DNA of 64,000 nucleotides from Cloacibacterium caeni (GTDB lineage: Bacteria > Bacteroidota > Bacteroidia > Flavobacteriales > Weeksellaceae): NCBI RefSeq assembly GCF_907163125.1, contig NZ_OU015319.1, positions 2,480,001-2,544,000 of the forward strand, read 5' to 3'. Every line of letters begins with the position of its first letter. Within the stretch, counting starts at the first letter, position 1. Below the pieces are notes generated by a model that worked only from the letters and a program-made list of their open reading frames with translations, ran no database searches and was not told the DNA's origin. The translations under genes and the position numbers were made by a program. Shown here in pieces: positions 15,959-57,173 of the stretch.

Positions 15959-16033
15959 GGGTTCTTAGCTCAGTTGGTTCAGAGCATCTGGTTTACACCC
16001 AGAGGGTCGGGGGTTCGAATCCCTCAGGACCCA
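15959..16033 (+). tRNA. tRNA-Val (anticodon UAC), copy 1
   Basis: A 75-base cloverleaf: acceptor GGGTTCT pairs with AGGACCC (one G-U), D-arm GCTC/GAGC, anticodon stem TCTGG/CCAGA around the loop TTTACAC (anticodon TAC), T-arm with GTTCGAATC. The CCA end is not encoded. Reads GUA and probably other valine codons by wobble. Confidence 0.95.
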
Positions 16034-16065
16034 CAAAAAAGGAACGAAACCTTTTCAAAAAATTC

Positions 16066-16140
16066 GGGTTCTTAGCTCAGTTGGTTCAGAGCATCTGGTT
16101 TACACCCAGAGGGTCGGGGGTTCGAATCCCTCAGGACCCA
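16066..16140 (+). tRNA. tRNA-Val (anticodon UAC), copy 2
   Basis: Identical over all 75 bases to the copy at 15959-16033, 32 bases downstream in the same transcript. The 32-base spacer is unlike the sequence after copy 2, so the duplication covers the tRNA and little else. Confidence 0.95.
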
Positions 16141-53222: not shown

Positions 53223-54452
53223 TTACGCTATATCATTTATTTCTTCTACATTTTGTTTTTTGCCCATTCCTTCTTCTTCGAAAGTGAGAATTCTTGAACT
53301 TACATTCAGAATAATTCCTAATTGAAGATAAGTCACCAGCATAGAAGTTCCTCCATAACTTATTAAAGGCAACGGTTGTCCTGTTACTGGAATAAGATTT
53401 ACCGCTACAGCAATATTTACTGCTAATTGCACGAAAATCATAATTCCTAAACTGAGCACCAATAAACTTCCAAAAAATGCCCGCATTTTACTGGCAATCA
53501 TCACAATCCTAATCATCATAATCATGTATAAAGTGATGAGTGCAAATGCTCCAAAAAAACCATATTCTTCTACAATAATGGCGAAAATAAAATCAGAAGC
53601 AGACTGTGGAAGCATCTGTTTCAATGCAGATTTTCCTGGTCCCATTCCTGTAATTCCGCCGTGAACTATGGCTGCTTTTGCTTGGTTTACCTGATAGTTT
53701 TTTGCTTTTACAGTTTCGTCTTCTACATTGGCATTTTTCTTAGAATTGGCAAAAGTTTCTATTCTACTTACCCAAGTATGAACACGATTGCTGCCAATTA
53801 AATCTGTTTTTAAAGCTAAAAACAAGAAAATTCCCACAAAAAGTCCTGAAATTCCTAAAAATCCTAAAATGTATTTGGAGGAAAGTTGACCAACCAACAT
53901 TACTGCTAATGAAACCATTAGAATCATCAAAGCGGTAGAACCATTGTCTTTTGCAACTAAAATAAATACCAATAAAACTGGTCCGAAAATGTAAAATATG
54001 TTCTCTATCGGAAGTCTTTCTCTTTTAATTTTTTTAGTTAAATATCTGCACAAATAGATAATTAACATGAGGTATGCAAAGCTTGATGGCTGAAAAGAAA
54101 TAGGAGTTCCAGGGATTTTTAACCAACGAGAAGCAGACGCTCCGTCGATTTTTTGTCCCGTAAACATGGTTACAAACAGTAAAATCACCATAATCCCGAG
54201 AAGGATACTGCTCAGTTTTCCGATGTGTTCGTATTTTACTGTTCCAACAGCTCTCATGATTGCTAAACCTAAGAAAACAAAAAACATGTGCTTGATGACG
54301 TGTCCCGTAGTTGTACCATTCTGCACAATGTATTCTAAGTTAGAACTTGCAGAATATACAGGGAACACGGAAAAGAAGGAGATTAAAATAATCACCATCC
54401 AAAGCACTTTGTCGCCTTTTAAAAGTTCAAATTTGTTTTCTTGTTGTTCCAT
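53223..54452 (-). CDS. ftsW: Cell division SEDS glycosyltransferase FtsW
   Basis: Polymerises septal lipid II with FtsI. The 409-residue protein has about ten membrane helices and the SEDS signatures ASRWLKIPGTPISFQPSSFA, AKDNGSTALMILMVSL, the extracytoplasmic loop with YQVNQAKAAIVHGGITGMG, SASDFIFAIIVEEYGFFGA and GQPLPLISYGGTSMLVT. Its location inside the dcw cluster distinguishes it from rodA. Confidence 0.95.
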   Translation of the reverse strand: MEQQENKFELLKGDKVLWMVIILISFFSVFPVYSASSNLEYIVQNGTTTGHVIKHMFFVFLGLAIMRAVGTVKYEHIGKLSSILLGIMVILLFVTMFTGQKIDGASASRWLKIPGTPISFQPSSFAYLMLIIYLCRYLTKKIKRERLPIENIFYIFGPVLLVFILVAKDNGSTALMILMVSLAVMLVGQLSSKYILGFLGISGLFVGIFLFLALKTDLIGSNRVHTWVSRIETFANSKKNANVEDETVKAKNYQVNQAKAAIVHGGITGMGPGKSALKQMLPQSASDFIFAIIVEEYGFFGAFALITLYMIMMIRIVMIASKMRAFFGSLLVLSLGIMIFVQLAVNIAVAVNLIPVTGQPLPLISYGGTSMLVTYLQLGIILNVSSRILTFEEEGMGKKQNVEEINDIA

Positions 54453-54461
54453 TCTTTATTT

Positions 54462-54505
54462 ATAGGATTGAAATCCTATTTTATTTCTTATCGCCACTTC
54501 GTGGC
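54462..54505. repeat. Two-hairpin repeat in the murD-ftsW spacer
   Basis: ATAGGATT-GA-AATCCTAT (54462-54479) and, after 13 bases, GCCAC-TTC-GTGGC (54493-54505). The layout matches 55883-55927 although the arm sequences differ. Confidence 0.65.
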
Positions 54506-54511
54506 TTTTTT

Positions 54512-55852
54512 TTAATTGTTTTTTAAAACTTCTTCTTTAAATAATTGTCCTCTATGTTCATAGTTATTGAATAAATCAAAACTTGCACAACAAGGAGAAA
54601 GTAAAACGGTATCACCTTTTTCTGCTAGAGATTTCGCAGTTTTCACCGCTTCTTCCATGCTAGAAGTATCTACGATAATGTCTTTTTTGTCTTTGAAAAA
54701 TTCTATGATTTTAGAATTATCCAATCCAAGACAAACAATCGCTTTTACTTTTCTTTTTACTAAATCTTCTATTTCTGTATAATCATTTCCTTTGTCTGTT
54801 CCACCTACAATCCAAACCGTTGGTGTTTTCATGCTTTCTAAAGCATAGTAGGTAGCGTTTACATTGGTTGCTTTAGAATCGTTAATGAATTTTACACCAT
54901 TAATTTCTGCCACACCTTCTAATCTGTGTTCTACCGCTTGGAAAGTCATTAGAGAATTTCTAATGCTCTCATTGCTGATATTCAATAATTTACTAGCGAT
55001 AGAAGCAGCTAAACTATTGGCAACATTATGCGTTCCCATCAGAGATAAATCTTCTATTTTCATAGAAAACTCATCGTGAAGTTTTACCACAATTTTTTCC
55101 TCTTCTGTATAACCTCCTTCTTCTAATTTTTCCTTCATAGAGAAAGGAATTTGCTTCACTCTTAAATCTATTTCTTGAAGCAGTTTTTGACTCATTTCAT
55201 CATCTTTATTGTAGATGAAATAATTGTCATTTTCTTGATTTTCGGCAATTCTGAATTTTGCCAAAGCGTATTCTTCGTAGTTGTAATTGTATTGGTCAAG
55301 ATGGTCTGGACTCAAATTCAACAATAAAGAAATGTAAGGTCTAAAATTCTGAATATCATCTAATTGGAAGCTGCTTACTTCTAACACATAATAGTCAAAA
55401 TTCTCTTGCGCAACTTGCATTGCGAAACTTTTGCCGATGTTTCCACCTAAACCTACATTCAAGTTGTCATTTTTCAGAATGTGATAAATGAGCGATGTAG
55501 TAGTAGTTTTCCCATTACTTCCTGTGATGGCGATGATTTTGGCATTGGTAAATTCTGCACCGAATTCTATCTCCGAAGAAAGTCTGATTCCTTTTGCTTT
55601 GATTTTTTGAACCATTTCAGCTTTCTTAGGAACTCCTGGAGATTTTATAACCCAATCTGCAGCTAGAATTCTTTCTTCATCGTGGTTTTTTTCTTCAAAC
55701 TCGATTCCGTTTTCTACCAAAACTTTTTTGTAACTCTCTTTAATTTCGCCTTTGTCTGAAAGAAAAACTTCCAAACCTTTTGTTTTAGCCAAAATTGCAG
55801 CGCCCACTCCACTTTCTCCTCCTCCTAGAATTACGACTTTCATTTTTTCCAT
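54512..55852 (-). CDS. murD: UDP-N-acetylmuramoyl-L-alanine--D-glutamate ligase
   Basis: Adds D-Glu to UDP-MurNAc-L-Ala. The 446-residue Mur ligase has VVILGGGESGVGAAILA, the ATP loop ITGSNGKTTTTSLIYH (about residues 109-124), LEVSSFQLDDIQ, NLSPDHLDQY, FINDSKATNVNATYYAL and LSPCCASFDLFNNYEHRG. Two ATGs (55852 and 55843) are possible starts. It lies between mraY and ftsW, with two-hairpin repeats on both sides. Confidence 0.97.
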   Translation of the reverse strand: MEKMKVVILGGGESGVGAAILAKTKGLEVFLSDKGEIKESYKKVLVENGIEFEEKNHDEERILAADWVIKSPGVPKKAEMVQKIKAKGIRLSSEIEFGAEFTNAKIIAITGSNGKTTTTSLIYHILKNDNLNVGLGGNIGKSFAMQVAQENFDYYVLEVSSFQLDDIQNFRPYISLLLNLSPDHLDQYNYNYEEYALAKFRIAENQENDNYFIYNKDDEMSQKLLQEIDLRVKQIPFSMKEKLEEGGYTEEEKIVVKLHDEFSMKIEDLSLMGTHNVANSLAASIASKLLNISNESIRNSLMTFQAVEHRLEGVAEINGVKFINDSKATNVNATYYALESMKTPTVWIVGGTDKGNDYTEIEDLVKRKVKAIVCLGLDNSKIIEFFKDKKDIIVDTSSMEEAVKTAKSLAEKGDTVLLSPCCASFDLFNNYEHRGQLFKEEVLKNN

Positions 55853-55882
55853 TTTGATTTTTATTTCAAACCTTTTTATTTT

Positions 55883-55927
55883 GTTGGATTGAATCCAACG
55901 TTCTCATATCTTTCGTTCCTGTGGAAC
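55883..55927. repeat. Two-hairpin repeat in the mraY-murD spacer
   Basis: GTTGGATT-G-AATCCAAC (55883-55899) and, after 15 bases, GTTCC-TGT-GGAAC (55915-55927). Same layout as 54462-54505 with compensating changes in both stems. Confidence 0.65.
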
Positions 55928-55934
55928 TTAATTT

Positions 55935-57173
55935 TTATCTAATTTTCAGTGTTATTAAACAGATAATTGCCAACATAACTCCTATGATAATCATTCTGTT
56001 AACAATTTTGCTTTCATGGAAACCACTTTTCTGATAATGGTGATGAAGTGGAGACATTTTAAACAATCTGTTATTCTGAGCGTACTCTAATCCGTACTTT
56101 TTCTTTCTGTATTTAAAAACCGCTACTTGCAGCATTACTGAAAGATTTTCGATTAAGAAAATCCCGCATAAAACTGGAATCAATAATTCTTTTCTTAAGA
56201 TAATTGCCAAAACTGCAATTACACCTCCTAACATTAAACTACCAGTGTCACCCATGAAAACTTGAGCTGGATAAGTGTTGTACCAGAAAAATCCTATGGT
56301 TGCTCCAATTAGAGCAACTGCGAAAATGGTGGTTTCTCCCATGTTCGGAAGGAACATAATATTCAGATAATCAGCGAAAATGATGTTTCCTGAGAGGTAG
56401 GCAAAAAAGGCAAGTGTTCCTAAAATTACCACACTCGTTCCTGCAGCAAGTCCATCAATTCCGTCTGTAATATTGGCTCCATTAGAAACAGCGGTCACAA
56501 TGAAAATTACCAGTGGAATAAAAATAATCCAAGCCCATTCTTCTTGTGAAGATTCGTCCATCCAGAAAAGAATTTTGCTGTAGTCAAATTCATTATTTTT
56601 CATAAATGGAACAGTAGAAATGGTTTCTCTTTCGGCTGGAGCGAAGTTTTGAGAAACGCTTGTTCTATTGATTTCGTGAGCATCAGCATATTTTCTTTTG
56701 ATGGTAATGTCTGGATGAAAATACATGGTAACTCCTACGATTAGTCCTAAACCAACTTGACCAATAATTTTAAAAATCCCGCTTAATCCGTCTTTATTTT
56801 TCTTTATTTTTTTGAGATAATCATCTATAAAACCGATGGCGCCCATCCAAAGCATAGAAACAATTAACAGAAGAACATAAATATTAAATTTTGTAAATAA
56901 AAGCACAGGAATAATGGTGGCAAAAATGATAATGAAACCTCCCATTGTAGGTGTACCTTCTTTTTGTTTTTGTCCTTCTAACCCGAGATCTCTTACCAAT
57001 TCTCCCATCTGTTTGTTGCGCAGATAATTGATGATTTTTTTACCATAAACCAGAGCAATCAGCAATGACAAAAGCACAGCAAAAGCCGCTCTGAAAGAGA
57101 TGTATTTCAGTAAGTTTAATCCAGGAATGTGAATTCCGTGATTGGTAAGATATTCGTATAGATAGTATAGCAT
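55935..57173 (-). CDS. mraY: Phospho-N-acetylmuramoyl-pentapeptide transferase
   Basis: Transfers phospho-MurNAc-pentapeptide to undecaprenyl phosphate, giving lipid I. The 412-residue, ten-helix protein has [32 protein letters not shown] (catalytic Asp pair), [30 protein letters not shown] and [12 protein letters not shown]. It is about 50 residues longer than E. coli MraY because of a charged loop around residues 160-215, which is usual for Bacteroidota. Preceded by the small unknown gene, 17 bases away. Confidence 0.96.

Follow-up and report, generated by a model that had tools for sequence, protein, structure and literature searches.

The mraY, murD and ftsW genes of Cloacibacterium caeni were found on the minus strand of the window (the whole 64-kb stretch of DNA that was analysed), and each of the two spacers flanking murD was found to contain one copy of a two-hairpin repeat. 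Read 5′ to 3′ on the minus strand, which is the operon strand, both copies contained hairpin A, followed by a spacer with initial GA and by hairpin B of 7-8 bp. The features of the locus were as follows:

53223..54452, minus strand: ftsW (FTSW_RODA_SPOVE), downstream of copy 1
54505-54462, minus strand: copy 1 whole, GCCAC-GAA-GTGGC, 13 nt, ATAGGAT(TTCA)ATCCTAT
54493..54505, minus strand: hairpin A of copy 1, 5-bp stem GCCAC/GTGGC with loop GAA
54480..54492, minus strand: spacer of copy 1, 13 nt, initial GA
54462..54479, minus strand: hairpin B of copy 1, ATAGGAT/ATCCTAT, ending 9 nt 5′ of the ftsW start codon
54512..55852, minus strand: murD (Mur ligase domains), between copies 1 and 2
55927-55883, minus strand: copy 2 whole, GTTCC-ACA-GGAAC, 15 nt, GTTGGAT(TCA)ATCCAAC
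55915..55927, minus strand: hairpin A of copy 2, GTTCC/GGAAC with loop ACA, 7 nt 3′ of the mraY stop codon
55900..55914, minus strand: spacer of copy 2, 15 nt (gaaagatat...), by inspection like the left-hand ends found in a second clade of transposases
55883..55899, minus strand: hairpin B of copy 2, GTTGGAT/ATCCAAC
55935..57173, minus strand: mraY (Glycos_transf_4), upstream of copy 2

The murD stop codon was separated from the start of copy 1 by 6 nt. All stems of both copies were perfectly paired, and folding was predicted on either strand, for DNA as well as RNA. On the minus strand, copies 1 and 2 were predicted to fold with −8.5 and −8.2 kcal/mol as DNA (z −4.5 and −3.6) and with −13.0 and −11.5 kcal/mol as RNA (z −4.3 and −2.5). 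The plan that the first-pass annotation had described for both spacers was confirmed from the sequence and the folding: a stem of 5 bp closing a 3-nt loop and a stem of 7-8 bp were found in each, 13-15 nt apart.

The covariance model R1 was trained on four transposase flanks together with copies 1 and 2 of the window, and was run on the whole 64-kb window with filters off. Copies 1 and 2 scored 50.2 and 48.6 bits, both belonging to the training set, and no other window site scored above 17.9 bits. At the gathering cut-offs of Rfam the window contained two tRNA matches only, and neither copy reached the cut-off of RF01687 (Acido-Lenti-1). Two tandem, nearly identical tRNA genes were found at 15959-16140 of the window.

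Copies in the genome and around transposase genes

The C. caeni genome (G000; 2,979,886 bp, one contig) was found to contain 19 matches to R1 at E≤1, of which 14 were below 0.02 and six of these 14 were training copies; model R2 gave 20 matches at E≤0.01. Among the matches listed, solitary copies were present at 371114/371238, 585440, 841207, 960762, 1269510, 1443707 and 2939281, all of them intergenic. The first-pass annotation had asked for a covariance-model search of the whole genome, with a lack of further copies to be counted against its proposal, and further copies were found. The plain GGATT/AATCC patterns were discarded as a search for the element; they returned a mixture of chance matches (L006, L007), unrelated palindromes (L009-L014) and the real element (L008). 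A separate palindrome family with CCTTTAAGGATT/CCTTCAAGGATT arms (about 12 bp) was found at seven sites (L009-L014), and two such palindromes flank a 203-aa ORF in L014 (G000 2405750-2406850) that is RAYT-like by eye.

Two transposase genes of the genome were found to be bracketed by the unit:

1518419-1518871: L002, Y1/HUH transposase gene, 150 aa, with a near-identical unit on each side, inverted
317557-318006: L001, second Y1/HUH gene, bracketed by diverged unit variants

The upstream unit of L002 contained GCCACGAAGTGGC, 13 nt (gaaaagaaataca) and ATAGGATTTTAATCCTAT before the start codon, with the inverted counterpart after the stop codon. In the flanks of L001, GGTACAAAGTACC was found on one side and GCCACGAAGTGGC on the opposite one, and hairpin B and another hairpin A came after each; in these variants the stem letters were changed and the pairing was kept. 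The L001 and L002 proteins, 57% identical to each other, scored 82.9 and 90.8 bits with the Y1_Tnp HMM (cut-off 23) and 66.6 and 62.9 bits with the IS200 equivalog NF033573 (cut-off 55), which places them in the IS200 type. With the RAYT model NF047646 (cut-off 80 bits) L001 scored 29.4 bits and L002 had no match, so that neither reached the RAYT cut-off. Both proteins contained the HUH and Y motifs with the Y...Q..HH signature of TnpA subclass 1.2, an assignment based here on this motif and on a length of about 148-150 aa. They were the two subclass-1.2 genes of G000, both of the QSL clade, and the other Y1 genes of the genome were three more PF01797 matches and one ORF that is RAYT-like by eye. 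A Y1-like 200-aa ORF was found amid long runs of an NFGKE/NFSKE-coding repeat in L005 (G000 449921-453034). Six tandem two-hairpin units with an 88-bp period were found upstream of the transposase gene in another locus (L064:916-1404).

In alignment A5 (125 distinct rows), all 12 pairs were changed on both sides and 99.0% of the cells were paired, a value that is inflated because the rows were chosen by a structure model. Double-change cells numbered 483 vs 141.8 ± 8.8 in shuffles, and slid structures were 33-48% paired. Hairpin A was found with 25 arm pairs, some of which contained a wobble or mismatch, and its loops (n=142) were GAA (90), AAA (28), GTA (8), AGA (7) and others (9). GNA triloops closed by C-G are unusually stable in DNA. 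The 40 commonest listed spacers of the R1 matches all began with G, a nucleotide that R1 itself favours at that position.

The L002 unit had, at each of its two ends, exactly the hairpin A of copy 1, and by inspection the copy between ftsW and murD was assigned to the end type of this transposase, which is still in the C. caeni genome. Copy 2 was found by inspection to resemble the left ends of the second clade, with its arm in L047 and L199 and its spacer in L045 and L058. The second clade is present in the congeners G001, G003 and G004 and absent from G000, so the mraY-murD copy is probably an orphan. By inspection, copies 1 and 2 seem to belong to different subfamilies. The covarying arms reported by the first-pass annotation were upheld for the family as a whole, by the pair counts of A5, and were set aside between the two window copies, where subfamily divergence was seen by inspection. 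A weak match to the Rfam COG2908 RNA (RF02939; 23.7 bits, gathering 58.7) was found at L058:2025-2069, near a unit of the second subfamily.

Distribution, orientation and presence between relatives

Homologues of the transposase were present in 23/59 relatives (the G005 match being a short fragment), in 94/296 genomes of the order and in 131/296 genomes of the phylum (alignment model, E≤1e-25). At least 80 named loci were taken from the genome collection, nine of which (L098, L103, L105, L112, L113, L122, L123, L126, L163) were not, or not clearly, from Bacteroidota. Among the 30 loci L034-L063, 29 contained the gene; 28 of these had Y...Q..HH and one (L038) had YH replacing HH.

A flank descriptor with no fixed sequence and at least two G/C per arm was applied to 200-bp flanks of 166 distinct transposase loci, and matches were found in 58/164 upstream and 70/163 downstream flanks. 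At 250-450 bp from the gene the numbers were 7/162 and 11/163, and in shuffled flanks (one shuffle per flank, dinucleotide-preserving where possible and otherwise plain) 0/164 and 0/163. With the descriptor reversed, 30 and 44 of the near flanks matched, in part probably because A-B-A arrays read both ways.

Both covariance models were trained on transposase flanks, R2 on the matches of R1, and among 176 loci R1 was run on 87 and R2 on 69 others, which formed the held-out test. R1 gave 142 matches in its 87 loci, and within 200 bp 72 were inward and 28 outward; an inward unit at ≤150 bp was present in 24/52 loci of the QSL clade, 4/6 of the NGVED clade and 8/24 others. The held-out tally covered the best 150 of 221 R2 matches and 66 loci in which a distinct gene had been identified. 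Among these best 150, 80 units at ≤150 bp of the gene were inward vs 8 outward, and beyond 150 bp 23 were inward vs 36 outward, with no inward preference. On the same best 150 of 221, an inward unit at ≤150 bp was found in 20/21 QSL loci, 2/2 NGVED loci and 23/43 others, with 20 missed.

Among the 59 relatives, 19 contained transposase and units, 3 units only (G002, G024, G036), 4 the gene with no unit detected (G010, G022, G023, G054) and 33 neither, under stricter filters for the unit search with which weak matches were lost. The gene was thus present in 19/22 element-bearing relatives vs 4/37 others (Fisher 7e-9, which overstates independence because the genomes are related).

The murD-ftsW spacer contained the unit in G000, G003, G005 and G006 and none in G001, G002 and G004; the short spacer of G002 could be a deletion instead of an empty site. 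The mraY-murD spacer contained the unit in G000, G002, G003, G005 and G006 and none in G001, G004 and G024. In other genera, own units were found upstream of murD in G017 (21.6 bits) and G035 (35.7, 25.0 and 18.0 bits). At the L002 site no unit was found within 250 bp downstream of the left flank in the six congeners, and one of them (G002) is a clear empty site, since the right flank was also kept in G002 only. The A/T-rich bases flanking the murD-ftsW and L002 sites differ between genomes, so that exact insertion junctions are not readable there. At the 960762 site G000, G005 and G006 carried an A-B-A unit; G001 and G002 lacked it and kept both neighbour genes, and G003 and G004 contained other sequence downstream. 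Two stem pairs were altered in one arm only among the three filled sites, once to a wobble and once to a mismatch, and no compensation was seen.

Orientation was tallied for 57 solitary copies of six genomes of the genus (52 from listed R2 matches and five from R1, orthologous sites being counted repeatedly). The A-to-B strand was sense to both neighbours in 42, antisense to both in 3, sense to the upstream gene only in 7 and to the downstream gene only in 2, and 3/57 copies overlapped an ORF of at least 80 aa; between same-direction genes, 42/45 were on the coding strand. Of 35 copies in seven other genomes, 25 ran with both neighbouring genes and 1 against both, 4 were sense to the upstream gene only, 4/35 overlapped such an ORF and 1/35 had a single neighbour, to which it was antisense. 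Between same-direction genes, 25/26 of these were sense. The bias was weaker at 24 RF01687 loci not beside the gene, of which 8 ran with both neighbours and 2 against both, 5 were sense to the upstream gene only and 4 to the downstream gene only, 2 overlapped an ORF and 3 were sense to a single neighbour.

At nine listed solitary sites of G000, the A-to-B strand was found on the side of the lagging-strand template (by eye, from 20-kb GC-skew samples), and at the same nine sites gene direction and replication agree. Two of the 21 skew samples (2.36 and 2.78 Mb) were off the two-arc picture, both window sites are close to a boundary, and five weak R1 matches of G000 (E 0.1-0.9) were excluded, one of which (706046, minus strand) would oppose the skew. 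Sites where genes and skew conflict were found in G003 and G006: 1718464 and 292862 agree with the genes and oppose the skew, and 813500, where the skew to one side is near zero, agrees with the skew and opposes the genes. IS608 and ISDra2 are described as targeting the lagging-strand template (Quentin et al. 2018, PMC6006769), and the side occupied by the units for this reason fits the mechanism proposed below, as agreement rather than proof.

Interpretation, known systems and alternatives

The unit has two hairpins, is dispersed through the genome, brackets transposase genes in inverted pairs and differs in presence between close relatives, and it is associated with the gene across genomes. 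These observations support the mobile hairpin family that the first-pass annotation had offered as one of two readings. Each window spacer is best explained, with a probability of about 0.8, by one REP-like mobile DNA repeat of about 44-50 bp that is transposed as a single strand and tied to TnpA subclass 1.2. The strand that bears the hairpins would be recognised by the transposase in single-stranded form, probably where it serves as lagging-strand template, and would be cut and rejoined, by which solitary and transposase-carrying units may spread into intergenic sites.

The unit resembles the REP/RAYT 'REPtron' in its short palindromic intergenic repeats with dispersed solitary copies, and in the inverted copies that bracket a low-copy transposase gene. 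It differs in containing two separate hairpins per unit and in a transposase that scores as IS200 type and not as RAYT; the GT[AG]G foot is absent at both window copies, and some other copies contain ATAG/TTAG before hairpin B. A Y1/HUH transposase and hairpins at the ends are shared with IS200/IS605 (IS608, ISDra2), and the ISHp608 transposase in PDB (2a6m) gave a weak sequence match (E 4.5e-5). The left and right ends of IS200/IS605 are not known to be inverted copies of each other, whereas the ends found here are inverted copies of one unit, solitary copies are common, and the two C. caeni genes diverge from each other as described above (only 57% identity). Quentin et al. 2018 (PMC6006769) describe subclass 1.2 by Y...Q..HH, low copy number and occurrence in Cyanobacteria and Bacteroidetes, generally without terminal structures of the IS200 type, and Table 1 of that paper gives REP 'no'. 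The motif, the length of about 150 aa and the low copy number agree with the present genes, whereas many members here carry REP-like units.

The link to Acido-Lenti-1 came only through related loci, and not from the window scan. The G000 site 960763-960807 scored 37.2 bits with RF01687, over gathering (37 bits), whereas the window copies score below it. In the Bacteroidota phylum sample of 296 genomes, RF01687 was over gathering in 29 (G000 and 28/295 others), and in 0/14 control genomes. The transposase was present in 24/29 RF01687 genomes (5 without) vs 107/267 others, and at the looser E≤0.001 in 43/61 vs 88/235; here too the genomes are not phylogenetically independent. At transposase loci, 13 matches over gathering were found in 6/20 loci and 3 in 3/20; seven of those 40 loci (L090, L097, L103, L105, L130, L149, L157) contained an RF01687 match at ≤ about 150 bp of the gene, and the remaining matches lie farther away. 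Among the best RF01687 loci, one per genome, 6/30 contained an intact subclass-1.2 gene within 1.5 kb. The Rfam element has the same plan on the opposite strand, with an 8-bp stem, 12 nt and a 5-bp stem with a UUC loop; its strand is opposite to A-to-B, since hairpin B comes first in the Rfam model. Weinberg et al. 2010 (PMC2864571) describe Acido-Lenti-1, from Acidobacteria and Lentisphaerae, as 'probably' RNA and probably not cis-regulatory, in an account of the motif that states no transposase or mobility link, and a 2026 Tannerella paper presents it as little understood and as a suggested regulator of nearby proteases. The Acido-Lenti-1 'RNA' is most likely this two-hairpin DNA repeat read on the other strand.

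In the titles and abstracts listed by searches of the open literature, subclass 1.2 was not linked to such repeats, nor Acido-Lenti-1 to a transposase. We lean towards a wider proposal, in which an IS200-like class-1 transposase clade recorded without REPs would run its own REP system across Bacteroidota, with the Rfam Acido-Lenti-1 as its substrate and the active strand kept on the coding strand and the lagging-strand template, and would link insertion sequences with domesticated RAYTs as an intermediate form. A cognate repeat would thereby be assigned to a transposase clade reported as REP-less, and an Rfam 'RNA of unknown function' would become a testable transposase substrate, with annotations of Acido-Lenti-1 as a protease regulator in need of re-examination. 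With these units one can also ask, in a natural setting, why mobile hairpins in operons settle almost only in sense orientation.

The other possibility raised by the first-pass annotation was selection on structure. An element kept for its function as RNA in the transcript, for example in stabilising 3′ ends, in processing or in the control of translation, would account for the coding-strand excess (42/45 and 25/26 copies), for the sense orientation and predicted RNA folding of both window copies, and for the 'probably' RNA entry of Acido-Lenti-1 (PMC2864571). In view of this excess, the units may still act on mRNA processing or on translation of ftsW and murD, as the first-pass annotation proposed. 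An RNA function as the reason for the repeats is considered unlikely, as the units form inverted pairs around transposase genes and are present or absent between congeners, the filled 960762 sites show two one-sided stem changes with no compensation, and the Rfam strand is antisense to most neighbour genes in the sampled family; a replication-strand rule could moreover yield part of the coding-strand bias. Chance hairpins in A/T-rich spacers, for which the shortness of the stems might speak, can hardly be credited, having already been refuted by the genome-wide copies, and also by the window scan, the enrichment in flanks vs shuffles and the pair counts.

The preferred mobile repeat was also weighed against a role as weak intrinsic terminators for the opposite strand. 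T-rich sequence follows hairpin A on the plus strand (54493-54505, 55915-55927), and these two are among 3 terminator-like sites in 1.8 kb (shuffles 0.8 ± 1.0). Relative to the operon, however, the plus strand is the antisense one, no T run is present at the right end of L002 and hairpin B would be left unexplained, which makes this role highly improbable. Somewhat less remote, and still very unlikely, is that the units are substrates of another Y1 protein (that of L003, L004, L005 or the L014 ORF), adjacency to subclass 1.2 being secondary. The three further PF01797 matches and the RAYT-like ORF (by eye) of C. caeni would be candidates, and a distance of about 1.4 kb, which includes an ORF, separates the units 371114/371238 from the L004 gene, but no unit was found in L003, L004, L005 or L014 (R2, E up to 0.05), and the flank pattern tracks the subclass-1.2 gene across the phylum.

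In another genus (L231 / L055; G014 near 3030840-3031367), a subclass-1.2 transposase gene was found immediately downstream of murD.
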